Made by a program: the position numbers and the translations under genes
The notes under the pieces: generated by a model
What the model saw: only the letters and a program-made list of their open reading frames with translations
The model's database searches: none
Told to the model about the DNA's origin: nothing
Part shown: one piece after another, positions 18,102 through 64,000 of the stretch
Numbering within the stretch: the first letter of the stretch is position 1
Layout: each line of letters begins with the position of its first letter
From: Crossaster papposus
Taxonomy: Eukaryota; Echinodermata; Asteroidea; Velatida; Solasteridae
DNA: 64,000 nt
Direction: 5' to 3'
NCBI GenBank assembly: GCA_037893245.1
Contig: JBAIAA010000666.1
Location: forward strand, 1-64,000

Positions 18102-18113
18102 CATATAAGATAT
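18102..18113. other. Orientation-switch junction of the satellite
   Basis: The forward array ends after GAAACGC at 18101. Twelve bases, CATATAAGATAT, follow, and from 18114 the reverse complement of the monomer begins with AAGCATGCCCCGGG. The two sides break at different monomer phases (position 189 on the left, position 126 on the right), so this is not a perfect palindrome centre. The spacer is A+T-rich and does not belong to the monomer. It joins arms of at least 18 kb and 22 kb, which makes a very large imperfect inverted repeat. Confidence 0.93.
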
Positions 18114-20410
18114 AAGCATGCCCCGGGAAGGGGCTGGGTGTTAGGAGATAGAGGGGGGCCTCCAGGAATGGCAAAATTAGCAATTTGACCCGGGGCATGC
18201 TTTGTTAGTATTTTATTTCGATTTTCTGAAAATTATAACGTTAACACACGCGTTTCAAATTCGCCATAGGTTTGTGCACACAATCCCCGCCCACAAATAA
18301 GGGCATGAAGAAAAGCATGCCCCGGGAAGGGGCTGGGTGTTAGGAGATAGAGGGGGGCCTCCAGGAATGGCAAAATTAGCAATTTGACCCGGGGCATGCT
18401 TTGTTAGTATTTTATTTCGATTTTCTGAAAATTATAACGTTAACACACGCGTTTCAAATTCGCCATAGGTTTGTGCACACAATCCCCGCCCACAAATAAG
18501 GGCATGAAGGAAAGCATGCCCCGGGAAGGGGCTGGGTGTTAGGAGATAGAGGGGGGCCTCTAGGAATGGCAAAATTAGCAATTTGACCCGGGGCATGCTT
18601 TGTTAGTATTTTATTTCGATTTTCTGAAAATTATAACGTTAACACACGCGTTTCAAATTCGCCATAGGTTTGTGCACACAATCCCCGCCCACAAATAAGG
18701 GCATGAAGGAAAGCATGCCCCGGGAAGGGGCTGGGTGTTAGGAGATAGAGGGGGGCCTCCAGGAATGGCAAAATTAGCAATTTGACCCGGGGCATGCTTT
18801 GTTAGTATTTTATTTCGATTTTCTGAAAATTATAACGTTAACACACGCGTTTCAAATTCGCCATAGGTTTGTGCACACAATCCCCGCCCACAAATAAGGG
18901 CATGAAGGAAAGCATGCCCCGGGAAGGGGCTGGGTGTTAGGAGATAGAGGGGGGCCTCCAGGAATGGCAAAATTAGCAATTTGACCCGGGGCATGCTTTG
19001 TTAGTATTTTATTTCGATTTTCTGAAAATTATAACGTTAACACACGCGTTTCAAATTCGCCATAGGTTTGTGCACACAATCCCCGCCCACAAATAAGGGC
19101 ATGAAGGAAAGCATGCCCCGGGAAGGGGCTGGGTGTTAGGAGATAGAGGGGGGCCTCCAGGAATGGCAAAATTAGCAATTTGACCCGGGGCATGCTTTGT
19201 TAGTATTTTATTTCGATTTTCTGAAAATTATAACGTTAACACACGCGTTTCAAATTCGCCATAGGTTTGTGCACACAATCCCCGCCCACAAATAAGGGCA
19301 TGAAGGAAAGCATGCCCCGGGAAGGGGCTGGGTGTTAGGAGATAGAGGGGGGCCTCCAGGAATGGCAAAATTAGCAATTTGACCCGGGGCATGCTTTGTT
19401 AGTATTTTATTTCGATTTTCTGAAAATTATAACGTTAACACACGCGTTTCAAATTCGCCATAGGTTTGTGCACACAATCCCCGCCCACAAATAAGGGCAT
19501 GAAGGAAAGCATGCCCCGGGAAGGGGCTGGGTGTTAGGAGATAGAGGGGGGCCTCCAGGAATGGCAAAATTAGCAATTTGACCCGGGGCATGCTTTGTTA
19601 GTATTTTATTTCGATTTTCTGAAAATTATAACGTTAACACACGCGTTTCAAATTCGCCATAGGTTTGTGCACACAATCCCCGCCCACAAATAAGGGCATG
19701 AAGGAAAGCATGCCCCGGGAAGGGGCTGGGTGTTAGGAGATAGAGGGGGGCCTCCAGGAATGGCAAAATTAGCAATTTGACCCGGGGCATGCTTTGTTAG
19801 TATTTTATTTCGATTTTCTGAAAATTATAACGTTAACACACGCGTTTCAAATTCGCCATAGGTTTGTGCACACAATCCCCGCCCACAAATAAGGGCATGA
19901 AGGAAAGCATGCCCCGGAAAGGGGCTGGGTGTTAGGAGATAGAGGGGGGCCTCCAGGAATGGCAAAATTAGCAATTTGACCCGGGGCATGCTTTGTTAGT
20001 ATTTTATTTCGATTTTCTGAAAATTATAACGTTAACACACGCGTTTCAAATTCGCCATAGGTTTGTGCACACAATCCCCGCCCACAAATAAGGGCATGAA
20101 GGAAAGCATGCCCCGGGAAGGGGCTGGGTGTTAGGAGATAGAGGGGGGCCTCCAGGAATGGCAAAATTAGCAATTTGACCCGGGGCATGCTTTGTTAGTA
20201 TTTTATTTCGATTTTCTGAAAATTATAACGTTAACACACGCGTTTCAAATTCGCCATAGGTTTGTGCACACAATCCCCGCCCACAAATAAGGGCATGAAG
20301 GAAAGCATGCCCCGGGAAGGGGCTGGGTGTTAGGAGATAGAGGGGGGCCTCCAGGAATGGCAAAATTAGCAATTTGACCCGGGGCATGCTTTGTTAGTAT
20401 TTTATTTCGA

Positions 20411-37500: not shown

Positions 37501-40500
37501 TCTGAAAATTATAACGTTAACACACGCGTTTCAAATTCGCCATAGGTTTGTGCACACAATCCCCGCCCACAAATAAGGGCATGAAGGAAAGCATGCCCCG
37601 GGAAGGGGCTGGGTGTTAGGAGATAGAGGGGGGCCTCCAGGAATGGCAAAATTAGCAATTTGACCCGGGGCATGCTTTGTTAGTATTTTATTTCGATTTT
37701 CTGAAAATTATAACGTTAACACACGCGTTTCAAATTCGCCATAGGTTTGTGCACACAATCCCCGCCCACAAATAAGGGCATGAAGGAAAGCATGCCCCGG
37801 GAAGGGGCTGGGTGTTAGGAGATAGAGGGGGGCCTCCAGGAATGGCAAAATTAGCAATTTGACCCGGGGCATGCTTTGTTAGTATTTTATTTCGATTTTC
37901 TGAAAATTATAACGTTAACACACGCGTTTCAAATTCGCCATAGGTTTGTGCACACAATCCCCGCCCACAAATAAGGGCATGAAGGAAAGCATGCCCCGGG
38001 AAGGGGCTGGGTGTTAGGAGATAGAGGGGGGCCTCCAGGAATGGCAAAATTAGCAATTTGACCCGGGGCATGCTTTGTTAGTATTTTATTTCGATTTTCT
38101 GAAAATTATAACGTTAACACACGCGTTTCAAATTCGCCATAGGTTTGTGCACACAATCCCCGCCCACAAATAAGGGCATGAAGGAAAGCATGCCCCGGGA
38201 AGGGGCTGGGTGTTAGGAGATAGAGGGGGGCCTCCAGGAATGGCAAAATTAGCAATTTGACCCGGGGCATGCTTTGTTAGTATTTTATTTCGATTTTCTG
38301 AAAATTATAACGTTAACACACGCGTTTCAAATTCGCCATAGGTTTGTGCACACAATCCCCGCCCACAAATAAGGGCATGAAGGAAAGCATGCCCCGGGAA
38401 GGGGCTGGGTGTTAGGAGATAGAGGGGGGCCTCCAGGAATGGCAAAATTAGCAATTTGACCCGGGGCATGCTTTGTTAGTATTTTATTTCGATTTTCTGA
38501 AAATTATAACGTTAACACACGCGTTTCAAATTCGCCATAGGTTTGTGCACACAATCCCCGCCCACAAATAAGGGCATGAAGGAAAGCATGCCCCGGGAAG
38601 GGGCTGGGTGTTAGGAGATAGAGGGGGGCCTCCAGGAATGGCAAAATTAGCAATTTGACCCGGGGCATGCTTTGTTAGTATTTTATTTCGATTTTCTGAA
38701 AATTATAACGTTAACACACGCGTTTCAAATTCGCCATAGGTTTGTGCACACAATCCCCGCCCACAAATAAGGGCATGAAGGAAAGCATGCCCCGGGAAGG
38801 GGCTGGGTGTTAGGAGATAGAGGGGGGCCTCCAGGAATGGCAAAATTAGCAATTTGACCCGGGGCATGCTTTGTTAGTATTTTATTTCGATTTTCTGAAA
38901 ATTATAACGTTAACACACGCGTTTCAAATTCGCCATAGGTTTGTGCACACAATCCCCGCCCACAAATAAGGGCATGAAGGAAAGCATGCCCCGGGAAGGG
39001 GCTGGGTGTTAGGAGATAGAGGGGGGCCTCCAGGAATGGCAAAATTAGCAATTTGACCCGGGGCATGCTTTGTTAGTATTTTATTTCGATTTTCTGAAAA
39101 TTATAACGTTAACACACGCGTTTCAAATTCGCCATAGGTTTGTGCACACAATCCCCGCCCACAAATAAGGGCATGAAGGAAAGCATGCCCCGGGAAGGGG
39201 CTGGGTGTTAGGAGATAGAGGGGGGCCTCCAGGAATGGCAAAATTAGCAATTTGACCCGGGGCATGCTTTGTTAGTATTTTATTTCGATTTTCTGAAAAT
39301 TATAACGTTAACACACGCGTTTCAAATTCGCCATAGGTTTGTGCACACAATCCCCGCCCACAAATAAGGGCATGAAGGAAAGCATGCCCCGGGAAGGGGC
39401 TGGGTGTTAGGAGATAGAGGGGGGCCTCCAGGAATGGCAAAATTAGCAATTTGACCCGGGGCATGCTTTGTTAGTATTTTATTTCGATTTTCTGAAAATT
39501 ATAACGTTAACACACGCGTTTCAAATTCGCCATAGGTTTGTGCACACAATCCCCGCCCACAAATAAGGGCATGAAGGAAAGCATGCCCCGGGAAGGGGCT
39601 GGGTGTTAGGAGATAGAGGGGGGCCTCCAGGAATGGCAAAATTAGCAATTTGACCCGGGGCATGCTTTGTTAGTATTTTATTTCGATTTTCTGAAAATTA
39701 TAACGTTAACACACGCGTTTCAAATTCGCCATAGGTTTGTGCACACAATCCCCGCCCACAAATAAGGGCATGAAGGAAAGCATGCCCCGGGAAGGGGCTG
39801 GGTGTTAGGAGATAGAGGGGGGCCTCCAGGAATGGCAAAATTAGCAATTTGACCCGGGGCATGCTTTGTTAGTATTTTATTTCGATTTTCTGAAAATTAT
39901 AACGTTAACACACGCGTTTCAAATTCGCCATAGGTTTGTGCACACAATCCCCGCCCACAAATAAGGGCATGAAGGAAAGCATGCCCCGGGAAGGGGCTGG
40001 GTGTTAGGAGATAGAGGGGGGCCTCCAGGAATGGCAAAATTAGCAATTTGACCCGGGGCATGCTTTGTTAGTATTTTATTTCGATTTTCTGAAAATTATA
40101 ACGTTAACACACGCGTTTCAAATTCGCCATAGGTTTGTGCACACAATCCCCGCCCACAAATAAGGGCATGAAGGAAAGCATGCCCCGGGAAGGGGATGGG
40201 TGTTAGGAGATAGAGGGGGGCCTCCAGGAATGGCAAAATTAGCAATTTGACCCGGGGCATGCTTTGTTAGTATTTTATTTCGATTTTCTGAAAATTATAA
40301 CGTTAACACACGCGTTTCAAATTCGCCATAGGTTTGTGCACACAATCCCCGCCCACAAATAAGGGCATGAAGGAAAGCATGCCCCGGGAAGGGGCTGGGT
40401 GTTAGGAGATAGAGGGGGGCCTCCAGGAATGGCAAAATTAGCAATTTGACCCGGGGCATGCTTTGTTAGTATTTTATTTCGATTTTCTGAAAATTATAAC

Positions 40501-40898
40501 GTTAACACACGCGTTTCAAATTCGCCATAGGTTTGTGCACACAATCCCCGCCCACAAATAAGGGCATGAAGGAAAGCATGCCCCGGGAAGGGGCTGGGTG
40601 TTAGGAGATAGAGGGGGGCCTCCAGGAATGGCAAAATTAGCAATTTGACCCGGGGCATGCTTTGTTAGTATTTTATTGTACAAAGACTCACGATCCAAAA
40701 GTTCATTGACCTTGCCTCCAAACTTTTATTTTTCAAGTCGGACGTCTCAATTATTCGTTCACGATAATTGTATCACATAATATAATCATTAGCAACTTAC
40801 ATCCACAAAATCACTGGTTTTAGTTCTTGTTAAGCAGTTAACTTGTTCTAAACATATCAGTAAACTTCAAACTTGCTCACTTCAAACAGTGGCTAGGC

Positions 40899-41025
40899 AA
40901 TAGAGTACCGAAGTGTGACGTCAGTTGTCGTACTAGTCGACTGAAACGTCCATTGCGAAAGCACATGGAAAAGGTTGAGTAACTTTGACAGCCAAAAGAT
41001 GACGTATTGACTTCGGTACTCTATT
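40899..41025. mobile_element. MITE-like inverted-repeat element, copy 1
   Basis: This 127-bp segment is bounded by AATAGAGTACCGAAGT (40899-40914) and its exact reverse complement ACTTCGGTACTCTATT (41010-41025). Imperfect pairing continues inward through an ACGTCA on the left and TGACGT on the right. If the element proper starts at GAGTACCG, it is flanked by TA on both sides (40901-40902 and 41022-41023), the target duplication typical of Tc1/mariner-type MITEs. It is too short to encode a transposase. It is a passenger inside the B segment and is duplicated along with it. Its family is not recognised. Confidence 0.6.
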
Positions 41026-41092
41026 AATAGATATTCCCTATTAACTACCATGGGTATTCCCGGGACTGAGCGAGGTTGGGTCAGCTGCCCAG

Positions 41093-41204
41093 TCGGCGGA
41101 TGGTTACTCCGCCGAGATCCCCGTGGTCCCCGGGGTCTCGAGGCCCGTCCCGGGACACCCCGTGACAAGGCCTGGCCACGGTAACTGGTCACCTTTCGTG
41201 ACCA
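41093..41204. other. Hairpin cluster at 3' side of B, copy 1
   Basis: Three stem-loops lie close together in a G+C-rich stretch. TCGGCGGA/TCCGCCGA (41093-41115) has a 7-nt loop. An 11-nt arm CGAGATCCCCG pairs with CGGGGTCTCG with one bulge just downstream. TGGTCAC/GTGACCA (41186-41204) has a 5-nt loop. The cluster is also rich in CCCGGG. It could be a structured RNA 3' end, a transposition terminus (Helitron-like elements end in hairpins) or a terminator-like structure. The sequence alone does not decide between these. Confidence 0.5.
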
Positions 41205-41243
41205 CCTGGCCAAGCCCGTGCACAGAGGGAAAAAACAACCCCA

Positions 41244-41970
41244 CCAGACAACACCAGTTGCCTTGAGGTGGTCATGAAGTCGAGAGACAAATTAAGTGTT
41301 AATAGTACTATTATTCATCTTTCCTCACTAGCCCCAAAGGCAGGGATGCCAAAGCTTAAACCAACCAGCCAGTAATCATCAAACCAGGACCCAAATGGGG
41401 GGCTGTGTCATTTCTTTACCCAGGGTGTGCCCAACCAGTTTAAACTGGTTTTCATTGGGGCCCTGCACACATCATTCAATACACTATAACAGTACACAAA
41501 AATACAACAACATTTACAGAAAGTTACAAAATATTTACAGATGTGCAAGGATATTTACAAGATTCCAAAACACTAAAACCAATTCTGATTTACGAGATGG
41601 GCGAAAACCCGCAAAAAAACCTTTTAGGAGGAAAAAGAAAAGGGGAAATTCCCATCCGGCTCCACCTTACAGTGGCAACCAAGTTACAACTCCGTAGATC
41701 AGTGCAATTGGCATAATATTAAAAGTGTATAGACCATATGCCCCCAGCTCACATCCGTACCCAAATGCGCCCGGCAACACGCGCACGCATCACGCCTCAC
41801 ATAATCTAGTCAAGTGACGACATCAGAGGTCACCTAATTCAAAGGCGATTTGACCCGCGACGTCGCCCCTCAAGCAAACTCAAGGCAAAACACGACGCGC
41901 GCGCACCACGGCCGGGCACACCCGAACACAGATGCAAACACGTGACGTCAGAGGGCACATCGTCTATTTC
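41244..41970. other. Region X, left part: no recognised gene
   Basis: This is unique sequence between B and the minisatellite. It holds a diverged single copy of the minisatellite module (41352-41401) and a perfect 18-bp palindrome AACCAGTTTAAACTGGTT (41433-41450). A 100-codon open frame at 41395-41697 has low-complexity lysine-rich ending and no recognisable domain. A CpG-rich part (about 41755-41950) carries two diverged versions of a GTGACG-TCAGAGG string, one containing TGACGTCA at 41943-41950. I see no convincing exon, promoter or RNA gene. Confidence 0.6.
41352..41401 (+). repeat. Diverged outlying minisatellite unit
   Basis: The string AAACCAACCAGCCAGTAATC followed by ATCAAACCAGGACCCAAATG is clearly related to the ATCAAACTAGGACCCATTAG anchor of the minisatellite some 650 bp downstream, but it carries several substitutions. 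It stands alone, without the short CCAAC modules repeated around it, so it may be a relic of the sequence from which the minisatellite expanded. Confidence 0.6.
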
Positions 41971-42747
41971 AAGCCCAAACCAACCAACCAATAACAAGCC
42001 CAAACCAACCAACCAATATCAAGCCCAAACCAACCAACCAAATCATCAAACTAGGACCCATTAGGGGGAACCATTTGTCAAGCCTAAAACAAACCAACAA
42101 AATTCTTCCCCCCATAGGTCCCAGTATATCAAGCCCAAACCAACCAACCAATATCAAGCCCAAACCAACCAACCAATAACAAGCCCAAACCAACCAACCA
42201 ATCATCAAACTAGGACCCATTAGGGGGAACCACTTGTCAAGCCTAAAACAAACCAACAAAATTATTCCCCCCATAGGTCCCAGTATATCAAGCCCAAACC
42301 AACCAACCAATATCAAGCCCAAACCAACCAACCAATATCAAGCCCAAACCAACCAACCAATATCAAGCCCAAACCAACCAACCAAATCATCAAACTAGGA
42401 CCCATTAGGGGGAACCATTTGTCAAGCCTAAAACAAACCAACAAAATTCTTCCTCCCATAGGTCCCAGTATATCAAGCCCAAACCAACCAACCAATATCA
42501 AGCCCAAACCAACCAACCAATAACAAGCCCAAACCAACCAACCAATCATCAAACTTGGACCAATTGGGGGGAATCATCTGTCAAGCCTAAAACGAATCAA
42601 CAAAATTCTTCCCCCCATAGGTCCCAGTATATCAAGCCCAAACCAACCAACCAATATCAAGCCCAAACCATCCAACCAATCATCAAACTAGAACCCCATT
42701 AGGGGAGTTATAATGTGTCAATCCCAACTCAACTAACCAATGTCCAA
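41971..42747. repeat. CCAAC-rich minisatellite with modular higher-order structure
   Basis: A 25-bp module (AATATCAAGCCCAAACC plus two CCAAC-type repeats) occurs in runs of one to four. It is interspersed with a longer block containing ATCAAACTAGGACCCATTAG and a CCCCCATAGGTCCCAG motif. The CAAACT anchors fall at about 42047, 42206, 42391, 42550 and 42684, giving spacings of 159, 185, 159 and 134 bp. These differ by one 25/26-bp module. The last units (42691-42747) are degenerate. The minus strand reads GGTTGGTTGGTTTGGG, a two- or three-G run pattern with quadruplex potential. The long tryptophan/glycine/leucine-rich minus-strand frames at 41969-42552 are translations of this repeat and not genes. 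Confidence 0.93.
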
Positions 42748-42980
42748 TTAATTATATAAACCAGTTGATTGTGTTTTTGTACTAATCTCACACCCAACCA
42801 TTCCATACACCTACAAACTACCATATAATAAAAACTATGTGAAATAATTTATTTTGTATAACCCCTCTTTTTTGCTCCCGTTTTTTTTGTTTTTTTTGTT
42901 TTTGGTTCTTTTTAAACTTGAACGGGCGCTTTGTTATTGTATATCCCCGCCAAACTCTAACTTGGGGTGGGCGGGTTGGG
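42748..42980. other. A+T-rich spacer with T tracts
   Basis: This spacer lies between the minisatellite and the intact AB module. It includes a T-rich stretch at about 42866-42913 with two runs of seven or eight T separated by G, then a short G+C-richer part ending in GGGTGGGCGGGTTGGG. No open frame or RNA gene is visible apart from the tRNA-like string noted separately. Confidence 0.6.
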
Positions 42981-42993
42981 AGAGCGTCCGACC
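42968..42993 (+). other. tRNA D-arm-like string at the AB left boundary
   Basis: The string GTTGGGAGAGCGTCCGAC matches the D-loop/D-stem region common in tRNA genes (the A-box side). No complementary D-stem, anticodon stem or good B box follows; the best candidate is TGATCGATT near 43017, which fits poorly. A functional tRNA is excluded. A degenerate tRNA-derived SINE head is possible. The AB duplication starts inside this string at AGAGCG (42981 and 47084), so the right-hand A copy lacks its first part. Confidence 0.3.
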
Positions 42994-43076
42994 AGCGAAA
43001 ATTGTTTGGAGCAAGTGATCGATTGTTACCTTACGGTTATTCACCCGCTAGCCCGCGCACGCTCACACGCTGAGCG

Positions 43077-43310
43077 ATGTCGGTCACCAAGAATGCGCCT
43101 GGTTCCCAATTGTATACATTTCCAGACGTACTTGGTACATTGATACACTGGTACGTTTCGATTTCGACTGTATCGTGGCTTGTACAAATAAGTTTATGTC
43201 TCTACGCACATAAACAGCTTGTACAAAGACTCACGATCCAAAAGTTCATTGACCTTGCCTCCAAACTTTTATTTTTCAAGTCGGACGTCTCAATTATTCG
43301 TTCACGATAA
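43077..43310 (+). CDS. 77-codon open frame spanning the A|B point (doubtful)
   Basis: An ATG-initiated frame of 77 codons lies in the intact AB module. The A|B breakpoint falls exactly after codon 48, between the CTT and GTA codons. In the right-hand A copy the frame is therefore cut after codon 48 and terminates three codons into the satellite. The predicted peptide has a moderately hydrophobic middle (about residues 21-43) and a basic end. I recognise no domain. It is short, it lies in a repeated non-coding-looking module, and no splice or promoter context supports it. It may well be a chance frame. Confidence 0.15.
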   Translation: MSVTKNAPGSQLYTFPDVLGTLIHWYVSISTVSWLVQISLCLYAHKQLVQRLTIQKFIDLASKLLFFKSDVSIIRSR

Positions 43311-43441
43311 TTGTATCACATAATATAATCATTAGCAACTTACATCCACAAAATCACTGGTTTTAGTTCTTGTTAAGCAGTTAACTTGTTCTAAACATAT
43401 CAGTAAACTTCAAACTTGCTCACTTCAAACAGTGGCTAGGC

Positions 43442-43568
43442 AATAGAGTACCGAAGTGTGACGTCAGTTGTCGTACTAGTCGACTGAAACGTCCATTGCG
43501 AAAGCACATGGAAAAGGTTGAGTAACTTTGACAGCCAAAAGATGACGTATTGACTTCGGTACTCTATT
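43442..43568. mobile_element. MITE-like inverted-repeat element, copy 2
   Basis: This is identical to the element at 40899-41025 (offset 2,543), with the same 16-bp perfect terminal arms and the same flanking TA dinucleotides. Because the surrounding B sequence is duplicated too, this is not an independent insertion. It contains the palindrome TGACGTCA (43459-43466), a perfect CRE-type site, whose relevance is unknown. Confidence 0.6.
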
Positions 43569-43635
43569 AATAGATATTCCCTATTAACTACCATGGGTAT
43601 TCCCGGGACTGAGCGAGGTTGGGTCAGCTGCCCAG

Positions 43636-43747
43636 TCGGCGGATGGTTACTCCGCCGAGATCCCCGTGGTCCCCGGGGTCTCGAGGCCCGTCCCGGGACA
43701 CCCCGTGACAAGGCCTGGCCACGGTAACTGGTCACCTTTCGTGACCA
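43636..43747. other. Hairpin cluster at 3' side of B, copy 2
   Basis: These are the same three stem-loops as at 41093-41204, with no visible change. Downstream of this copy the sequence becomes A/C-rich (AACCCCAACAAAACCCAAAC) and then a T run. In copy 1 the corresponding position continues into unrelated sequence. The end of the shared sequence, about 39 bp after the last hairpin, therefore marks the module boundary. Confidence 0.5.
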
Positions 43748-43786
43748 CCTGGCCAAGCCCGTGCACAGAGGGAAAAAACAACCCCA

Positions 43787-43798
43787 ACAAAACCCAAA

Positions 43799-43837
<39 letters not shown>

Positions 43838-43860
43838 TTTTTTAATATTTGTTGTTTCTC
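43787..43860. other. 31-T run and T-rich tract beside the AB boundary
   Basis: After the end of the intact AB module come a short A/C-rich string, 31 consecutive T (43802-43832), AA and nine more T. On the minus strand this reads as a poly(A) tract. It could be the tail of a minus-strand retroposed sequence lying in 43844 and beyond, or an expanded mononucleotide repeat. The exact length of such a run is unreliable in any assembly. Confidence 0.7.
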
Positions 43861-44077
43861 GTTATGTTTCATTGCCGGAGATTAGGGTACTCCGGTTACA
43901 GTCTTGATGCATAAGTACACTAACTATCCTAATCAAATTGTGAGCATTTCACAGCCCCTGCAAAATCCCAATGAGTCTGTCCGTATCTGCAACTGACGTA
44001 AAAATACCGTCTCACATAAAGTACTTGTGCTCGCAGGTGAGAGCTGTGAGTGACAACTATGACTGATAACAACATCA
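43861..44077. other. Region Y, first part: nothing recognised
   Basis: This is unique, moderately A+T-rich sequence following the T run. I see no long open frame, internal repeat or RNA-like structure. If the T run is a minus-strand poly(A) tail, the retroposed body would lie here, but the sequence does not resemble a SINE head or LINE 3' end that I know. Confidence 0.5.
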
Positions 44078-44362
44078 TTAGCGAGCTGCAGCATTGCTAT
44101 TTTGCAACTTGTTAAGCGGTTTGCAATACAATCTATATTTACTTGTGTCGTACGCTTTCCAAGCTATAGTATAAACGGGTGATATATAGTACAGCCCGGG
44201 TGATAATGCCGACCAAGTGAAGGTCCTGCAGATATAGTTGCTCCTCCTTTCCCCACCCATGTCACCGCTGATTGAGGCATTCTCAAGTTCTGCCTTCATG
44301 AGTAGCAGGCGCTTTCCTTTGTTCTCCCGATAGATCGAGACTGTCGCCGTCCACTCAGACAT
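44078..44362 (-). CDS. 94-codon open frame, possible exon (doubtful)
   Basis: A true ATG opens a 94-codon frame on the minus strand, ending in TAA at the left. Two adjacent in-frame TGA codons lie just upstream of the ATG, so this would have to be the first coding exon or a single-exon gene. A pyrimidine-rich acceptor-like string TTCCTTTCAG ends at 44382, 20 bp upstream of the ATG. The base before the start (T at -3) is a weak Kozak context. The composition is mixed, with no low-complexity bias, and it contains several Trp, Tyr and Cys residues. I recognise no domain. No neighbouring gene gives context. It may be a fragment of a host gene carried in the block, or chance. Confidence 0.2.
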   Translation of the reverse strand: MSEWTATVSIYRENKGKRLLLMKAELENASISGDMGGERRSNYICRTFTWSALSPGLYYISPVYTIAWKAYDTSKYRLYCKPLNKLQNSNAAAR

Positions 44363-44838
44363 GTATGTCCTCTGTCATCAGCTGAAAGGAATACACAAGA
44401 TCTGAGCCAGTTTTGCGTTCTTATTAACATATAGTCAACAGGTGTCTGTTGCAAATTCTCGTTTGGTTTAATTGCTAAAGCACGTCAGCTCAATTACGTG
44501 ATTTCCATGTCGTATGAATTTATATGCGCCTGAGAAGGGATAACTTAATTTGCTAATCTAACAATTAACTTCCTTTTCTAATCTAACAATTTACATGTGT
44601 TAGTATGCTCTCTTTCCATTCCATTAACATCAATTGAAGCAATGCGTGCTCCTGATTTGCCATGTCGCTAAGCCAAAATGTTGTTATTCGGTTTCTAGGG
44701 GGTTATGCTTTTTTGGATGTCTAGCCAATAAGGAAATAGCAAAGTTGGTATTAGTCATACGCCAATAATATGATTGGGTATTTCTTTTTCCACACTCAGC
44801 TTAGGAACTTAACTTTCACGCGAGTAACGTGTGATACT
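44363..44838. other. Region Y: non-coding, short direct repeat
   Basis: No supported gene is visible. The string CTAATCTAACAATT occurs twice, 25 bp apart (44553-44566 and 44578-44591). The rest is unique A+T-rich sequence with no other structure that I can support. Confidence 0.5.
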
Positions 44839-45084
44839 TCAATGCTTTTCCACGTCCCGAGTGTGTTTGTTTACTAAATCGAGCTTATTTTGAATAAACT
44901 GTTCCACGATCACGGGGTTCAGTGCATCTTTCCCAACTTGGGATCCCCTGGTGAAAGCATTACGTACTATGCAGACATCACCCGGCTGACCTACCCGAGA
45001 GTGATTATTTGGTGTGAAAGATACATACGTTAAACCACGCTTTACTAATCTGTCTAGAATGGACAACGCGTTTGGCGCTAATAT
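44839..45084 (-). CDS. Stop-to-stop open frame, possible exon (doubtful)
   Basis: This minus-strand frame is open for about 81 codons between a TGA at about 45085-45087 and its stop at 44839. It has no ATG near its start (the first usable alternative codon is TTG), so if real it would be an internal or terminal exon or a degraded fragment. An ATTAG acceptor-like site lies at the upstream end (about 45080). The peptide has a balanced, protein-like composition with segments such as SFTPNNHSRVGQPGDVC and NPVIVEQFIQNKLDLVNKH. I do not recognise the family. It might be a relic of a transposon or host gene, and I assign no function. Confidence 0.22.
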   Translation of the reverse strand: MLAPNALSILDRLVKRGLTYVSFTPNNHSRVGQPGDVCIVRNAFTRGSQVGKDALNPVIVEQFIQNKLDLVNKHTRDVEKH

Positions 45085-46399
45085 TCAATGTACGTGCTTA
45101 TTAAATCACAACATAAGACCATGACAATGCCAGTGCAAGTTGATTCTGAACTGCGCAGGGCATCCTTGGAATCCTACAAGTATGTCACAAAACATATGTT
45201 ACCACCGTGTATTATCTGCGTGACTGATCCCCTAAATGATCGTAAGTGCAAACAATAGTAAATCGACAGCGCTGCCCTACATTTTAGACTTCCTGGCGAC
45301 CAGTTCCAGAATACAAAGAGGCGATTTTTGACCTTTCTAAACACTTTTGCAGAACTCCTTTACCATGATTAAGAAACCCACAAAAATTTGCTTATAAGCT
45401 TATATAATAAGGATAGTATGTCCTTGACGCCACCTGAACTGCGATTTCTACGAATCTGCGATGTCTACGTATGACGGAAGTTCAATGTGCAGCGTGCGTC
45501 CTTACTTAAGACTAAGAGCTCCGTTTCTAAATTCGGCACCCTGAATCCAAGCTCCATGTCTGAATGTACAAATGCCAGTTTGTTCAAGTTAGGCAACCTA
45601 GGAATGTTTTATTTAATTTTGCAACCACAACATTATAATACAATACACGTACTTGCGTTACACAAATTTCTAATTTGTTTATAAATCTGTTTACAATAGT
45701 AACAGCCGTGGCTTATTTCAAATGCGAGAGTTTATTCTTTAAACAAGGCCCACTTGGCAATGTGTTCAATCTCGTTATTGCCCTGTGTTGAATTTGGACT
45801 ATATCTTCAACATAAAGGCACTCACTCGTGTTTACAAGTTTACGTGTTTAAATAAACCATTTACACCTTCTGACAACGCCTCACACCGTCGAAGTACACT
45901 TCCAATGCCGAGTTCAGCCGATAAACACAACTTTCCCGCCAATAGCTTGAAAACGTGCCTACGTGCCTCCATGCCAACCATGCCCGGCAGCACGATGGTG
46001 GATAGTGTTTAGCAATTAAACGTTGACGTTTATAAATTGGACACGTGCTTTTAGCTTCTAAACACGCTTACAACCGATATCAAAGGACGCAGATACTCCC
46101 CATACCCAGCGGCTCTATCGAGAGTGAAATGACTGATACTGTGATAGTGATATTTTAAATGGGTAATTACCTCAGCTTATTTTCTACGAATTGCCACCTT
46201 GTTATTGTGTTTGTTTATTTATATATGAAATATCTGTTTGTTAATTATAAGGACGTACACTTTCCTAACGTTGCCGGCAGGAACGACAGCTAAAAACAAT
46301 AACTTAGGTTACAAGGTGAATTTGGGTCTACGTAACCACGGGTACGCCGAATCTGGGAATTCCTTGACCTGCCCCCTTTGTGGGCGTTTATTCTAAAGG
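45085..46399. other. Region Y, middle: no recognised gene
   Basis: This is about 1.3 kb of unique, mostly A+T-rich sequence. Short plus-strand frames at 45487-45684 and 45785-46012 exist, but the second starts at GTG and both look like chance frames: no domain, and low-quality composition. No tRNA, repeat or promoter signature is supported. Confidence 0.5.
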
Positions 46400-47083
46400 A
46401 AATATCCCGTCTTGCCGTGCGGGGAATCCAGCATGGTATTGGACTGTTCCAAGTACCGCCCTGAATTTGTACAGCGTTACTGTTGGGGGCGCTCCCTTTG
46501 CGTGCAGAAATTGAAAGGGGGGGCCCGTTATAGCGGCGCTGGAATGAGTTGGAGATTTTGTCCGAAGCCTGAACTTGGGTTACAAGTTTGCGATACTATG
46601 CATTGCCAACCACAGTGTTTACAGGGAAAAACGTTAGCGGCTCACCCGGTCTCTGCCTGTGCAGCTCCCGTATAGACACCGCCGGTCGCAAAGTTGTGGT
46701 GCATGATGAGTATCCGATTGACTCCCGATGCAATAAGACCTCCTCCAGGCTGATGGGTTGGTCTATGCTATGCATGCTGCTGGTATTACTTTGTCAGCTA
46801 ATCGCTGCCGAATAATGGCTGCCGGAGCCCCAGTTACAGGAGTGTCGGTCTGTGTGCTCGTGCCTGGACCAGTGTCTTGTGTTGTTGTCTTATTTCCCCG
46901 TCGACTTCACCTCACATGCGGTACCTCTTTCAGCTTTGCTGTTGCTCGTTTCCCAAATCTTGTCGTCGACGATGCTGGTCCCAGCTCAATTTCACTTATC
47001 AGACCGCTACCTAAATTCAGACTTTAGCCAACAATCCGTTGAGCCAATTCTGTCTCAAATCTTCTCACACGAGAGCAATATCT
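46400..47083 (+). pseudogene. G+C-richer tract with overlapping open frames (possible relic)
   Basis: This 680-bp stretch has higher G+C and more open frames than the rest of region Y. Plus-strand frames at 46412-46675, 46588-46815, 46758-47027 and 46816-47085 overlap in different phases, and three of them rely on non-ATG starts. Consecutive frames handing over to one another is what a frameshifted coding relic looks like, but chance in a stop-poor G+C-rich segment is equally possible. The last frame has a hydrophobic stretch and a serine-rich C-terminal part. It stops at TAG two bases into the A segment. No domain is recognised and no function is proposed. Confidence 0.2.
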
Positions 47084-47323
47084 AGAGCGTCCGACCAGCG
47101 AAAATTGTTTGGAGCAAGTGATCGATTGTTACCTTACGGTTATTCACCCGCTAGCCCGCGCACGCTCACACGCTGAGCGATGTCGGTCACCAAGAATGCG
47201 CCTGGTTCCCAATTGTATACATTTCCAGACGTACTTGGTACATTGATACACTGGTACGTTTCGATTTCGACTGTATCGTGGCTTGTACAAATAAGTTTAT
47301 GTCTCTACGCACATAAACAGCTT
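47084..47323 (+). repeat. AB module, A part only (right edge of block)
   Basis: These 240 bp equal 42981-43220 at a constant offset of 4,103. The copy ends exactly where the left-edge B copy begins within the intact module, and it abuts the satellite. Its last two bases (TT) are also satellite bases, so the junction position is ambiguous by two bases. Together with 40678-41243 it would complete a second 806-bp AB. Confidence 0.94.
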
Positions 47324-48234
47324 TCGATTTTCTGAAAATTATAACGTTAACACACGCGTTTCAAATTCGCCATAGGTTTGTGCACACAATCCCCGCCCAC
47401 AAATAAGGGCATGAAGGAAAGCATGCCCCGGGAAGGGGCTGGGTGTTAGGAGATAGAGGGGGGCCTCCAGGAATGGCAAAATTAGCAATTTGACCCGGGG
47501 CATGGTTTGTTAGTATTTTATTTCGATTTTCTGAAAATTATAACGTTAACACACGCGTTTCAAATTCGCCATAGGTTTGTGCACACAATCCCCGCCCACA
47601 AATAAGGGCATGAAGGAAAGCATGCCCCGGGAAGGGGCTGGGTGTTAGGAGATAGAGGGGGGCCTCCAGGAATGGCAAAATTAGCAATTTGACCCGGGGC
47701 ATGCTTTGTTAGTATTTTATTTCGATTTTCTGAAAATTATAACGTTAACACACGCGTTTCAAATTCGCCATAGGTTTGTGCACACAATCCCCGCCCACAA
47801 ATAAGGGCATGAAGGAAAGCATGCCCCGGGAAGGGGCTGGGTGTTAGGAGATAGAGGGGGGCCTCCAGGAATGGCAAAATTAGCAATTTGACCCGGGGCA
47901 TGCTTTGTTAGTATTTTATTTCGATTTTCTGAAAATTATAACGTTAACACACGCGTTTCAAATTCGCCATAGGTTTGTGCACACAATCCCCGCCCACAAA
48001 TAAGGGCATGAAGGAAAGCATGCCCCGGGAAGGGGCTGGGTGTTAGGAGATAGAGGGGGGCCTCCAGGAATGGCAAAATTAGCAATTTGACCCGGGGCAT
48101 GCTTTGTTAGTATTTTATTTCGATTTTCTGAAAATTATAACGTTAACACACGCGTTTCAAATTCGCCATAGGTTTGTGCACACAATCCCCGCCCACAAAT
48201 AAGGGCATGAAGGAAAGCATGCCCCGGGAAGGGG

Positions 48235-49627: not shown

Positions 49628-52600
49628 ATGGGTGTTAGGAGATAGAGGGGGGCCTCCAGGAATGGCAAAATTAGCAATTTGACCCGGGGCATGCTTTGTT
49701 AGTATTTTATTTCGATTTTCTGAAAATTATAACGTTAACACACGCGTTTCAAATTCGCCATAGGTTTGTGCACACAATCCCCGCCCACAAATAAGGGCAT
49801 GAAGGAAAGCATGCCCCGGGAAGGGGCTGGGTGTTAGGAGATAGAGGGGGGCCTCCAGGAATGGCAAAATTAGCAATTTGACCCGGGGCATGCTTTGTTA
49901 GTATTTTATTTCGATTTTCTGAAAATTATAACGTTAACACACGCGTTTCAAATTCGCCATAGGTTTGTGCACACAATCCCCGCCCACAAATAAGGGCATG
50001 AAGGAAAGCATGCCCCGGGAAGGGGCTGGGTGTTAGGAGATAGAGGGGGGCCTCCAGGAATGGCAAAATTTGCAATTTGACCCGGGGCATGCTTTGTTAG
50101 TATTTTATTTCGATTTTCTGAAAATTATAACGTTAACACACGCGTTTCAAATTCGCCATAGGTTTGTGCACACAATCCCCGCCCACAAATAAGGGCATGA
50201 AGGAAAGCATGCCCCGGGAAGGGGCTGGGTGTTAGGAGATAGAGGGGGGCCTCCAGGAATGGCAAAATTAGCAATTTGACCCGGGGCATGCTTTGTTAGT
50301 ATTTTATTTCGATTTTCTGAAAATTATAACGTTAACACACGCGTTTCAAATTCGCCATAGGTTTGTGCACACAATCCCCGCCCACAAATAAGGGCATGAA
50401 GGAAAGCATGCCCCGGGAAGGGGCTGGGTGTTAGGAGATAGAGGGGGGCCTCCAGGAATGGCAAAATTAGCAATTTGACCCGGGGCATGCTTTGTTAGTA
50501 TTTTATTTCGATTTTCTGAAAATTATAACGTTAACACACGCGTTTCAAATTCGCCATAGGTTTGTGCACACAATCCCCGCCCACAAATAAGGGCATGAAG
50601 GAAAGCATGCCCCGGGAAGGGGCTGGGTGTTAGGAGATAGAGGGGGGCCTCCAGGAATGGCAAAATTAGCAATTTGACCCGGGGCATGCTTTGTTAGTAT
50701 TTTATTTCGATTTTCTGAAAATTATAACGTTAACACACGCGTTTCAAATTCGCCATAGGTTTGTGCACACAATCCCCGCCCACAAATAAGGGCATGAAGG
50801 AAAGCATGCCCCGGGAAGGGGCTGGGTGTTAGGAGATAGAGGGGGGCCTCCAGGAATGGCAAAATTAGCAATTTGACCCGGGGCATGCTTTGTTAGTATT
50901 TTATTTCGATTTTCTGAAAATTATAACGTTAACACACGCGTTTCAAATTCGCCATAGGTTTGTGCACACAATCCCCGCCCACAAATAAGGGCATGAAGGA
51001 AAGCATGCCCCGGGAAGGGGCTGGGTGTTAGGAGATAGAGGGGGGCCTCCAGGAATGGCAAAATTAGCAATTTGACCCGGGGCATGCTTTGTTAGTATTT
51101 TATTTCGATTTTCTGAAAATTATAACGTTAACACACGCGTTTCAAATTCGCCATAGGTTTGTGCACACAATCCCCGCCCACAAATAAGGGCATGAAGGAA
51201 AGCATGCCCCGGGAAGGGGCTGGGTGTTAGGAGATAGAGGGGGGCCTCCAGGAATGGCAAAATTAGCAATTTGACCCGGGGCATGCTTTGTTAGTATTTT
51301 ATTTCGATTTTCTGAAAATTATAACGTTAACACACGCGTTTCAAATTCGCCATAGGTTTGTGCACACAATCCCCGCCCACAAATAAGGGCATGAAGGAAA
51401 GCATGCCCCGGGAAGGGGCTGGGTGTTAGGAGATAGAGGGGGGCCTCCAGGAATGGCAAAATTAGCAATTTGACCCGGGGCATGCTTTGTTAGTATTTTA
51501 TTTCGATTTTCTGAAAATTATAACGTTAACACACGCGTTTCAAATTCGCCATAGGTTTGTGCACACAATCCCCGCCCACAAATAAGGGCATGAAGGAAAG
51601 CATGCCCCGGGAAGGGGCTGGGTGTTAGGAGATAGAGGGGGGCCTCCAGGAATGGCAAAATTAGCAATTTGACCCGGGGCATGCTTTGTTAGTATTTTAT
51701 TTCGATTTTCTGAAAATTATAACGTTAACACACGCGTTTCAAATTCGCCATAGGTTTGTGCACACAATCCCCGCCCACAAATAAGGGCATGAAGGAAAGC
51801 ATGCCCCGGGAAGGGGCTGGGTGTTAGGAGATAGAGGGGGGCCTCCAGGAATGGCAAAATTAGCAATTTGACCCGGGGCATGCTTTGTTAGTATTTTATT
51901 TCGATTTTCTGAAAATTATAACGTTAACACACGCGTTTCAAATTCGCCATAGGTTTGTGCACACAATCCCCGCCCACAAATAAGGGCATGAAGGAAAGCA
52001 TTCCCCGGGAAGGGGCTGGGTGTTAGGAGATAGAGGGGGGCCTCCAGGAATGGCAAAATTAGCAATTTGACCCGGGGCATGCTTTGTTAGTATTTTATTT
52101 CGATTTTCTGAAAATTATAACGTTAACACACGCGTTTCAAATTCGCCATAGGTTTGTGCACACAATCCCCGCCCACAAATAAGGGCATGAAGGAAAGCAT
52201 GCCCCGGGAAGGGGCTGGGTGTTAGGAGATAGAGGGGGGCCTCCAGGAATGGCAAAATTAGCAATTTGACCCGGGGCATGCTTTGTTAGTATTTTATTTC
52301 GATTTTCTGAAAATTATAACGTTAACACACGCGTTTCAAATTCGCCATAGGTTTGTGCACACAATCCCCGCCCACAAATAAGGGCATGAAGGAAAGCATG
52401 CCCCGGGAAGGGGCTGGGTGTTAGGAGATAGAGGGGGGCCTCCAGGAATGGCAAAATTAGCAATTTGACCCGGGGCATGCTTTGTTAGTATTTTATTTCG
52501 ATTTTCTGAAAATTATAACGTTAACACACGCGTTTCAAATTCGCCATAGGTTTGTGCACACAATCCCCGCCCACAAATAAGGGCATGAAGGAAAGCATGC

Positions 52601-52705
52601 CCCGGGAAGGGGCTGGGTGTTAGGAGATAGAGGGGGGCCTCCAGGAATGGCAAAATTAGCAATTTGACCCGGGGCATGCTTTGTTAGTATTTTATTTCGA
52701 TTTTC

Positions 52706-53921
52706 CGAAAATTATAACGTTAACACACGCGTTTCAAATTCGCCATAGGTTTGTGCACACAATCCCCGCAAACAAATAAGGGCATGAAGGCCCACAAATA
52801 AGGGCATGAAGGAAAGCATGCCCCGGGAAGGGGCTGGGTGTTAGGAGATAGAGGGGGGCCTCCAGGAATGGCAAAATTAGCAATTTGACCCGGGGCATGC
52901 TTTGTTAGTATTTTATTTCGATTTTCTGAAAATGTTAACGTTAACACACGCGTTTCAAATTCGCCATAGGTTTGTGCACACAATCCCCGCCCACAAATAA
53001 GGGCATGAAGGAAAGCATGCCCCGGGAAGGGGCTGGGTGTTAGGAGATAGAGGGGGGCCTCCAGGAATGGCAAAATTAGCAATTTGACCCGGGGCATGCT
53101 TTGTTAGTATTTTATTTCGATTTTCTGAAAATTATAACGTTAACACACGCGTTTCAAATTCGCCATAGGTTTGTGCACACAATCCCCGCCCACAAATAAG
53201 GGCATGAAGGAAAGCATGCCCCGGGAAGGGGCTGGGTGTTAGGAGATAGAGGGGGGCCTCCAGGAATGGCAAAATTAGCAATTTGACCCGGGGCATGCTT
53301 TGTTAGTATTTTATTTCGATTTTCTGAAAATTATAACGTTAACACACGCGTTTCAAATTCGCCATAGGTTTGTGCACACAATCCCCGCCCACAAATAAGG
53401 GCATGAAGGAAAGCATGCCCCGGGAAGGGGCTGGGTGTTAGGAGATAGAGGGGGGCCTCCAGGAATGGCAAAATTAGCAATTTGACCCGGGGCATGCTTT
53501 GTTAGTATTTTATTTCGATTTTCTGAAAATTATAACGTTAACACACGCGTTTCAAATTCGCCATAGGTTTGTGCACACAATCCCCGCCCACAAATAAGGG
53601 CATGAAGGAAAGCATGCCCCGGGAAGGGGCTGGGTGTTAGGAAATAGAGGGGGGCCTCCAGGAATGGCAAAATTAGCAATTTGACCCGGGGCATGCTTTG
53701 TTAGTATTTTATTTCGATTTTCTGAAAATTATAACGTTAACACACGCGTTTCAAATTCGCCATAGGTTTGTGCACACAATCCCCGCCCACAAATAAGGGC
53801 ATGAAGGAAAGCATGCCCCGGGAAGGGGCTGGGTGTTAGGAGATAGAGGGGGGCCTCCAGGAATGGCAAAATTAGCAATTTGACCCGGGGCATGCTTTGT
53901 TAGTATTTTATTTCGATTTTC
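52706..53921 (-). repeat. Six-monomer higher-order repeat of 1,216 bp, copy 1
   Basis: This unit carries TTTTCCGAAAA (52706), a 22-bp insertion (52770-52791) and AAAATGTTAACG (52934). All three recur at exactly +1,216 bp (53922, 53986-54007, 54150), that is 6 x 199 + 22. The 125-codon minus-strand frames at 52720-53097 and 53936-54313 are a consequence of the 22-bp insertion re-phasing the repeat and are not genes. Confidence 0.85.
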
Positions 53922-53985
53922 CGAAAATTATAACGTTAACACACGCGTTTCAAATTCGCCATAGGTTTGTGCACACAATCCCCGC

Positions 53986-54007
53986 AAACAAATAAGGGCA
54001 TGAAGGC
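53986..54007 (-). repeat. 22-bp insertion variant monomer (second of three)
   Basis: Between CCCCGC and CCACAAATAAGG an extra 22 bp is present, an imperfect tandem copy of the adjacent ACAAATAAGGGCATGAAGG. The same insertion occurs at 52770-52791 and 63758-63779. A single origin followed by spread within the array is the simplest explanation. Confidence 0.85.
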
Positions 54008-57000
54008 CCACAAATAAGGGCATGAAGGAAAGCATGCCCCGGGAAGGGGCTGGGTGTTAGGAGATAGAGGGGGGCCTCCAGGAATGGCAAAATTAGCAAT
54101 TTGACCCGGGGCATGCTTTGTTAGTATTTTATTTCGATTTTCTGAAAATGTTAACGTTAACACACGCGTTTCAAATTCGCCATAGGTTTGTGCACACAAT
54201 CCCCGCCCACAAATAAGGGCATGAAGGAAAGCATGCCCCGGGAAGGGGCTGGGTGTTAGGAGATAGAGGGGGGCCTCCAGGAATGGCAAAATTAGCAATT
54301 TGACCCGGGGCATGCTTTGTTAGTATTTTATTTCGATTTTCTGAAAATTATAACGTTAACACACGCGTTTCAAATTCGCCATAGGTTTGTGCACACAATC
54401 CCCGCCCACAAATAAGGGCATGAAGGAAAGCATGCCCCGGGAAGGGGCTGGGTGTTAGGAGATAGAGGGGGGCCTCCAGGAATGGCAAAATTAGCAATTT
54501 GACCCGGGGCATGCTTTGTTAGTATTTTATTTCGATTTTCTGAAAATTATAACGTTAACACACGCGTTTCAAATTCGCCATAGGTTTGTGCACACAATCC
54601 CCGCCCACAAATAAGGGCATGAAGGAAAGCATGCCCCGGGAAGGGGCTGGGTGTTAGGAGATAGAGGGGGGCCTCCAGGAATGGCAAAATTAGCAATTTG
54701 ACCCGGGGCATGCTTTGTTAGTATTTTATTTCGATTTTCTGAAAATTATAACGTTAACACACGCGTTTCAAATTCGCCATAGGTTTGTGCACACAATCCC
54801 CGCCCACAAATAAGGGCATGAAGGAAAGCATGCCCCGGGAAGGGGCTGGGTGTTAGGAGATAGAGGGGGGCCTCCAGGAATGGCAAAATTAGCAATTTGA
54901 CCCGGGGCATGCTTTGTTAGTATTTTATTTCGATTTTCTGAAAATTATAACGTTAACACACGCGTTTCAAATTCGCCATAGGTTTGTGCACACAATCCCC
55001 GCCCACAAATAAGGGCATGAAGGAAAGCATGCCCCGGGAAGGGGCTGGGTGTTAGGAGATAGAGGGGGGCCTCCAGGAATGGCAAAATTAGCAATTTGAC
55101 CCGGGGCATGCTTTGTTAGTATTTTATTTCGATTTTCTGAAAATTATAACGTTAACACACGCGTTTCAAATTCGCCATAGGTTTGTGCACACAATCCCCG
55201 CCCACAAATAAGGGCATGAAGGAAAGCATGCCCCGGGAAGGGGCTGGGTGTTAGGAGATAGAGGGGGGCCTCCAGGAATGGCAAAATTAGCAATTTGACC
55301 CGGGGCATGCTTTGTTAGTATTTTATTTCGATTTTCTGAAAATTATAACGTTAACACACGCGTTTCAAATTCGCCATAGGTTTGTGCACACAATCCCCGC
55401 CCACAAATAAGGGCATGAAGGAAAGCATGCCCCGGGAAGGGGCTGGGTGTTAGGAGATAGAGGGGGGCCTCCAGGAATGGCAAAATTAGCAATTTGACCC
55501 GGGGCATGCTTTGTTAGTATTTTATTTCGATTTTCTGAAAATTATAACGTTAACACACGCGTTTCAAATTCGCCATAGGTTTGTGCACACAATCCCCGCC
55601 CACAAATAAGGGCATGAAGGAAAGCATGCCCCGGGAAGGGGCTGGGTGTTAGGAGATAGAGGGGGGCCTCCAGGAATGGCAAAATTAGCAATTTGACCCG
55701 GGGCATGCTTTGTTAGTATTTTATTTCGATTTTCTGAAAATTATAACGTTAACACACGCGTTTCAAATTCGCCATAGGTTTGTGCACACAATCCCCGCCC
55801 ACAAATAAGGGCATGAAGGAAAGCATGCCCCGGGAAGGGGCTGGGTGTTAGGAGATAGAGGGGGGCCTCCAGGAATGGCAAAATTAGCAATTTGACCCGG
55901 GGCATGCTTTGTTAGTATTTTATTTCGATTTTCTGAAAATTATAACGTTAACACACGCGTTTCAAATTCGCCATAGGTTTGTGCACACAATCCCCGCCCA
56001 CAAATAAGGGCATGAAGGAAAGCATGCCCCGGGAAGGGGCTGGGTGTTAGGAGATAGAGGGGGGCCTCCAGGAATGGCAAAATTAGCAATTTGACCCGGG
56101 GCATGCTTTGTTAGTATTTTATTTCGATTTTCTGAAAATTATAACGTTAACACACGCGTTTCAAATTCGCCATAGGTTTGTGCACACAATCCCCGCCCAC
56201 AAATAAGGGCATGAAGGAAAGCATGCCCCGGGAAGGGGCTGGGTGTTAGGAGATAGAGGGGGGCCTCCAGGAATGGCAAAATTAGCAATTTGACCCGGGG
56301 CATGCTTTGTTAGTATTTTATTTCGATTTTCTGAAAATTATAACGTTAACACACGCGTTTCAAATTCGCCATAGGTTTGTGCACACAATCCCCGCCCACA
56401 AATAAGGGCATGAAGGAAAGCATGCCCCGGGAAGGGGCTGGGTGTTAGGAGATAGAGGGGGGCCTCCAGGAATGGCAAAATTAGCAATTTGACCCGGGGC
56501 ATGCTTTGTTAGTATTTTATTTCGATTTTCTGAAAATTATAACGTTAACACACGCGTTTCAAATTCGCCATAGGTTTGTGCACACAATCCCCGCCCACAA
56601 ATAAGGGCATGAAGGAAAGCATGCCCCGGGAAGGGGCTGGGTGTTAGGAGATAGAGGGGGGCCTCCAGGAATGGCAAAATTAGCAATTTGACCCGGGGCA
56701 TGCTTTGTTAGTATTTTATTTCGATTTTCTGAAAATTATAACGTTAACACACGCGTTTCAAATTCGCCATAGGTTTGTGCACACAATCCCCGCCCACAAA
56801 TAAGGGCATGAAGGAAAGCATGCCCCGGGAAGGGGCTGGGTGTTAGGAGATAGAGGGGGGCCTCCAGGAATGGCAAAATTAGCAATTTGACCCGGGGCAT
56901 GCTTTGTTAGTATTTTATTTCGATTTTCTGAAAATTATAACGTTAACACACGCGTTTCAAATTCGCCATAGGTTTGTGCACACAATCCCCGCCCACAAAT

Positions 57001-63200: not shown

Positions 63201-63757
63201 GGCTGGGTGTTAGGAGATAGAGGGGGGCCTCCAGGAATGGCAAAATTAGCAATTTGACCCGGGGCATGCTTTGTTAGTATTTTATTTCGATTTTCTGAAA
63301 ATGTTAACGTTAACACACGCGTTTCAAATTCGCCATAGGTTTGTGCACACAATCCCCGCCCACAAATAAGGGCATGAAGGAAAGCATGCCCCGGGAAGGG
63401 GCTGGGTGTTAGGAGATAGAGGGGGGCCTCCAGGAATGGCAAAATTAGCAATTTGACCCGGGGCATGCTTTGTTAGTATTTTATTTCGATTTTCTGAAAA
63501 TTATAACGTTAACACACGCGTTTCAAATTCGCCATAGGTTTGTGCACACAATCCCCGCCCACAAATAAGGGCATGAAGGAAAGCATGCCCCGGGAAGGGG
63601 CTGGGTGTTAGGAGATAGAGGGGGGCCTCCAGGAATGGCAAAATTAGCAATTTGACCCGGGGCATGCTTTGTTAGTATTTTATTTCGATTTTCTGAAAAT
63701 TATAACGTTAACACACGCGTTTCAAATTCGCCATAGGTTTGTGCACACAATCCCCGC

Positions 63758-63779
63758 AAACAAATAAGGGCATGAAGGC
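63758..63779 (-). repeat. 22-bp insertion variant monomer (third of three)
   Basis: This is the same 22-bp insertion as at 52770-52791 and 53986-54007, here about 9.8 kb further on. It is preceded 455 bp upstream by another AAAATGTTAACG variant (63303), so the two markers travel together in the diverged part of the array but in a different relative order from the 52-54 kb copies. Confidence 0.85.
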
Positions 63780-64000
63780 CCACAAATAAGGGCATGAAGG
63801 AAAGCATGCCCCGGGAAGGGGCTGGGTGTTAGGAGATAGAGGGGGGCCTCCAGGAATGGCAACATTAGCAATTTGACCCGGGGCATGCTTTGTTAGTATT
63901 TTATTTCGATTTTCTGAAAATTATAACGTTAACACACGCGTTTCAAATTCGCCATAGGTTTGTGCACACAATCCCCGCCCACAAATAAGGGCTTGAAGGA

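Follow-up and report, generated by a model that had tools for sequence, protein, structure and literature searches.

The window analysed here is a stretch of 64,000 nucleotides from the sea star Crossaster papposus (GenBank assembly GCA_037893245.1, contig JBAIAA010000666.1, positions 1 to 64,000, forward strand). It contains a 199-bp satellite, and a single 6,646-bp insert is embedded in this satellite at 40678–47323. The insert has the architecture L-X-R|L-Y-R, in which the terminal repeats L (566 bp) and R (240 bp) are both present twice. On the + strand, the first unit consists of L1 (40678–41243), the interior X (41244–42980) and R1 (42981–43220), and the second of L2 (43221–43786), the interior Y (43787–47083) and R2 (47084–47323). 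There are no differences between L1 and L2 over 566 bp or between R1 and R2 over 240 bp. R1 and L2 adjoin exactly at a TT: the joint reads CAGC-TT-GTACA, with one TT and no base lost or gained. When the block is excised, its flanks join as ...TAGTATTTTATT|TCGATTTTC... and the satellite unit is intact. In a comparison of the rejoined flanks with the rest of the array, 287 of 288 matches cross the joint, 283 of them ungapped. The initial annotation had read the insert as a permuted B-X-AB-Y-A block (B is our L, and A is our R) whose broken halves make up one 806-bp AB and whose junctions follow from an exchange at a shared TT. This description is exact: 566 and 240 bp add up with no base missing or extra, and both the rejoined satellite and the internal joint read as proposed.

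We searched for the ends of the element across the host genome (1.02 Gb), allowing at most 2 mismatches for the 5′ end and using reversed patterns as controls. The 5′ end (start of L) was found at 85 places and the 3′ end (end of R) at 78 (reversed controls, 0 in both cases). A 3′ inverted-repeat pattern was found at 79 places, 76 of them with the spacer of the family (reversed control, 5). Putting L and R ends in order gave 60 groups: 19 L-X-RL-Y-R blocks, 2 L-X-RL-X-RL-Y-R blocks, 17 single L..R units and 22 truncated or irregular groups. All 30 RL joints in the genome abut exactly. Since the same layout recurs genome-wide and the reversed end patterns gave no matches, the architecture of the block is not due to chance, and the recurring blocks identify the window block as one copy of a transposable element. 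The order of units is fixed, only X-Y and X-X-Y being seen. A marker frame of Y lies in the last interval of 21/21 multi-unit blocks and in an earlier interval of none, and it is present in 7 and absent from 10 of the 17 single units. This count covers 38 of the 60 groups (multi-unit blocks and singles); in the other 22, compared as lists by reading, no Y marker was found ahead of any RL joint. X first and Y last were also read directly in composites L009, L010, L016–L024 and L031.

Some of these blocks are duplicates. The window (contig C666) and C1254, as well as C18 and C1338, have identical 200-bp 5′ flanks, and two C474 blocks were counted as duplicates by identical spacings alone. Hence, the 19 two-unit blocks correspond to ~16 distinct positions. 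The C1254 copy (L009, G000:C1254:13001-23000) lies on a 47-kb contig and has an identical block and an identical 200-bp 5′ satellite flank; either the assembly contains this block twice (haplotig) or the array itself has been duplicated.

Insertion sites share a common target. We compared 7 flank pairs located in tandem repeats with neighbouring units. All 7 rejoin to an intact unit, with only the TT in common and no target-site duplication, in agreement with the Helentron-type insertion hinted at in the initial annotation. The rejoined flanks are 97.5–100% alike to the best unit over 120–121 bp, and the 2 alignments with a single gap have it off the joint. The outer 5′ flank, visible in 24 of 26 loci, ends with TT in 22 (ATT in 19 and CTT in 3), the exception being TC in one locus that is present twice. 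The outer 3′ flank starts with T in 17/19, the exceptions being the duplicated C259 copies. At three loci (L010, L014 and L022), tandem arrays of tRNA genes, mostly tRNA-Leu with units of ~217 bp, are interrupted by the element, each time at the same position. Further insertions occupy three positions of the 199-bp satellite. Of these, L019 and L024 look independent because their R subtypes differ despite the same satellite position.

The ends carry an inverted repeat and a hairpin. The 5′ end with the target TT (TTGTACAAAGACTCACGATCCA, 40676–40697, + strand) is also the 5′ copy of a subterminal inverted repeat (subTIR): the first 22 bases of the element recur, inverted and gapped, 34–52 nt from the 3′ end. 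The 3′ copy (ATCGTGGCTTGTACAA, + strand) lies at 43172–43187 in R1, with its R2 counterpart at 47275–47290. The repeat was spotted by eye before testing; 54 of 20000 shuffles and 0 of 536 inner windows were as good. It is preserved in 35/35 full R and 37/38 full L copies read. The 3′ hairpin, GTTTATGT-8-ACATAAAC, occupies 43192–43215 in R1 (+ strand) and 47295–47318 in R2. Its 8-bp stem stops 5 nt short of the 3′ terminus, the last 33 nt fold with z = –3.69 (0/200 shuffles), and a 7-bp core is kept in 35/35 full R copies read. In addition, X contains a minisatellite (41965–42686, + strand) with a 25-bp unit nested in 159/185/344-bp units.

These ends are close to those of non-autonomous Helentrons (HINEs), which have a TT target, no target duplication, a subTIR, a 3′ hairpin and internal tandem repeats. 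HINEs are described as inserting at TT and as having a palindrome at the 3′ end and subTIRs of 11–15 bp, the 3′ copy being located 38–60 bp from that end; some copies contain tandem repeats, and the same description anticipates tandem or composite copies (PMC4067079). HINE, DINE-1 and Cg_HINE resemble the present family in the TT target without duplication, the 3′ hairpin, the internal tandem repeats and the absence of any coding capacity found (PMC4067079, PMC7492417). They also have a subTIR, for which the present family shows an imperfect counterpart at about the expected place. The present family differs from HINEs in its two different interiors, in its long common ends (566 and 240 bp) and in the fixed-order pair of units, as well as in the imperfection of the subTIR, and no autonomous partner was found.

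No coding domain was found in X or Y. Around the block, 36 stop-to-stop frames of at least 60 aa were listed, and the 10 that were scanned contained no Pfam domain, including none of reverse transcriptase, RNase H or tyrosine recombinase. The longest frame is 141 aa, versus a mean of 121 aa (maximum 177) in 100 mononucleotide shuffles. A 98-aa open frame on the – strand of Y (44078–44374), which has no Pfam match, is a relic of a frame common to Y copies. The conserved part is a 65-aa core, and the longest version reaches 158 aa (L035:6507-6980). The core, taken from the Y copy of L029, has 43 matches in the genome, which, judging from their coordinates, we take to be further copies of Y; at an E-value of 0.001, no host gene was seen from which it could derive. 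A search with the longer frame carried by an old Y copy brought up just a weak match to CID (E = 0.089, under the cut-off), and solved structures yielded no match at E-values up to 1. The GC-rich 3′ part of L (41050–41243, – strand; second copy at 43593–43786) folds strongly as RNA: relative to shuffles, z is –3.51 for the + strand and –5.25 for the – strand of 41050–41243. It has no Rfam match, and an Rfam search of 40000–48000 with E-values up to 5 returned 2 matches only, both far below gathering scores. The same part is the least variable stretch of L between subfamilies.

The comparison of variants drew on 26 loci (the window and L009–L033), which provided 38 full L and 35 full R copies out of the 85 L and 78 R ends in the genome; L001–L008, which coincide with other loci, and copies that were not full-length in BLAST were set aside. 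The loci include 11 distinct composites, 10 of them with two or more full R. In every composite read, subfamily variants are present in both copies of L, where they include a 40-bp indel, and likewise in both copies of R. Among variants private to one locus (duplicates counted once), 11 are present in all copies of the locus and 11 in some only; L020 B388T and L024 B350G were counted apart from the gap pattern. R copies are identical in 9 of the 10 distinct composites with at least two full R, and the third R of L020 differs once. No variant was found in the copies read that marks L1 versus L2, or R1 versus R2, across independent loci. The boundaries of homology are base-identical for L in 11/11 composites and for R in 9/9. 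Distances between copies of X correlate with those between copies of the Y3 piece (r = 0.92, 0/5000 permutations, 9 composites); this analysis omits the duplicate L018 as well as composites in which the X1, Y2 or Y3 piece is broken.

We consider it reasonably probable that the block represents a single insertion of a dispersed non-coding element in which two HINE-type units, [L-X-R][L-Y-R], move as one composite. We infer a rolling-circle route in which, most likely, a Rep/helicase supplied in trans would nick TT^GTAC at the start of L1, and the strand would be displaced or copied from L1 onward. The internal R1|L2 joint would be passed without stopping (end bypass); the process would stop at the hairpin of R2, to be followed by insertion at an A-TT-T target without duplication. 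A stop at R1 or a start at L2 might then give L-X-R and L-Y-R as single units. Through homologous exchange, the repeats could likewise produce single units, as well as X-X-Y arrays, and could homogenise the repeats. The X-X-Y arrays and single units suggest that such exchange may be frequent. Recombination among copies does occur, as follows from L012, a mosaic with a young-type L and old-type X and R. Overall, we favour a composite of two HINE-type units since it covers the ends, the target, the single units and the fixed order; the correlation of X with Y3 distances also speaks for it. Taken alone, it leaves the parallel change of the repeats unexplained.

Several observations weigh against this explanation. 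Simple co-transposition predicts neither subfamily variants in both L and both R copies nor the 11 private variants present in all copies of a locus. In the old composite C604, 1 private substitution is shared versus 15 unshared, with 4 further unshared gap runs (145 L and 123 R columns, one locus), so conversion in place looks slow there. Distances for X agree poorly with those for the Y2 piece (r = 0.36, 453/5000 permutations), and this disagreement, together with the X/Y3 agreement, indicates that recombination among copies probably also takes place. The subTIR is imperfect: a palindromic core of 6–8 bp plus CACGAT with differing spacers, rather than 11–15 identical bp. The hairpin is unremarkable when the last 50 nt are folded (z = –1.64, 15/200 shuffles). 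Finally, no autonomous element sharing the ends of this family was found. Helitron_like_N (PF14214) has 150 scored matches of 273 candidates in the genome, many in frames longer than 3,000 aa, and none of the 150 lies inside an L..R interval (lists compared by reading). The presence of these matches as such counts in favour of the composite reading: the genome has many Helitron/Helentron elements that appear intact.

The parallel change of the repeats can mean either that they are renewed at each transposition, in the manner of long terminal repeat (LTR) or split-direct-repeat elements, or that young, near-identical copies are efficiently homogenised. The first option leads to the main rival explanation, a possible but unlikely one: a single split-direct-repeat element (A1-X-B1A2-Y-B2), a non-autonomous relative of the tyrosine-recombinase retrotransposons Ngaro, PAT and VIPER (PMC6681497, PMC8969392, PMC4157794, PMC9210276). 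Both ends would be rebuilt from the internal RL joint in each round; with this joint as a template, the repeats would be identical at insertion, as in LTR elements, and the single units would be recombinants resembling solo LTRs. Ngaro, PAT, VIPER and SIRE resemble our family in the A1-internal-B1A2-B2 order (PMC8969392, PMC6681497), the lack of target duplication and the identical repeats. The identity of R in 9/10 composites, the private variants present in both copies, the fixed order and the base-identical boundaries are in line with it, and the L-Y-R singles have a parallel in SIRE, which is the A2-B2 part of VIPER. However, none of the enzymes of these elements was found in the 10 frames scanned, Y is very long (3.3 kb versus ~30 bp between SIRE repeats), and the hairpin, the subTIR and the TT target are Helentron marks that a split-repeat origin leaves unexplained.

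A related option, which we also regard as doubtful, retains the Helentron-type ends: a rolling-circle element may have become LTR-like, with the internal R|L joint templating both ends at each transposition. The repeats would then be kept identical and the order kept fixed. If every transposition does renew the repeats, the family would demonstrate LTR-like behaviour in a DNA transposon whose ends are of the rolling-circle type. Among the open-access papers listed in our searches (titles and abstract openings), none has a title describing a split-repeat Helentron composite. DNA transposons with LTR-like direct repeats are known from KolobokP, which has an LTDR-INT-LTDR layout, solo repeats and multimers (PMC9587614). 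KolobokP has 3–5 bp target duplications, the same whole repeat at both ends and a DDD/E transposase (PMC9587614), whereas here the ends L and R differ, there is no duplication and no transposase was seen. Nor does the block qualify as an LTR retrotransposon, as it has neither a 4–6 bp target duplication nor a full LTR at each end.

In the initial annotation, the block was ascribed to an extrachromosomal circle, AB-X-AB-Y, inserted once by a single TT exchange. The two junctions match exactly what the opening of a circle at an RL joint would leave, and circles with precise joints are real intermediates of Helitrons (PMC5876387). However, the same block is present at 18 other places (~15 distinct sites), and those read have other flanks, save for the C1254 duplicate. 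This is the very finding that the initial annotation had named as refuting its reading, and it argues against a one-off event. Furthermore, a freely opening circle with two equal RL joints should yield L-Y-RL-X-R about half the time. X precedes Y in all 21 multi-unit blocks, and the order Y-AB-X is present in 0/21. A single circle integration is therefore very improbable. By analogy with the Helitron Helraiser (PMC5876387), a circle can nevertheless be a normal intermediate of transposition. Tandem Helitrons and circles in bat, plants and Fusarium (FoHeli) also have 3′-to-5′ head-to-tail joints (PMC5876387, PMC5148889), but such arrays, as described, repeat Helitron copies, whereas here a heterogeneous X-Y pair recurs at ~16 sites. 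We give almost no credence to two independent single units standing side by side, the second having entered the TT that ends the first: the genome does contain single units (17 L..R), and TT serves as the target as well as the joint, but chance neighbours predict Y-Y and Y-X, which are not among the 21 multi-unit blocks, and private variants are common to both units.

The family offers a natural test of whether Helitron-type integration proceeds from circles, which may open at either joint, or from unique-ended molecules, and the 21/21 order is informative in this respect. Even on the most cautious view, the family provides a clear example of a tandem Helentron-like pair with unlike members, which travels as one unit and occurs in arrays of satellite and of tRNA genes.

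Several copies that appeared to be of special interest turned out otherwise. The 11 kb between two C259 copies was considered as a possible autonomous interior; the same flank follows both copies, revealing a 15.4-kb tandem duplication, and a long frame in this interval is one that, by eye, we take to be LINE-like (long interspersed nuclear element). C251 and C604, with Y intervals of 17.4 and 13.2 kb, were candidates for long autonomous copies and are read as old copies containing other insertions. C19 and C164 each contain an X single, and the internal deletion that these two share could have been proof of single-unit movement; they represent one duplicated locus, the upstream flanks being 99.7% alike over 3.1 kb.

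Outside the insert, the 199-bp satellite flips orientation at 18101–18114, where the composition skew changes sign. In three places, 52569–53011, 53785–54227 and 63557–63999, the satellite units measure 221 bp rather than 199 bp.

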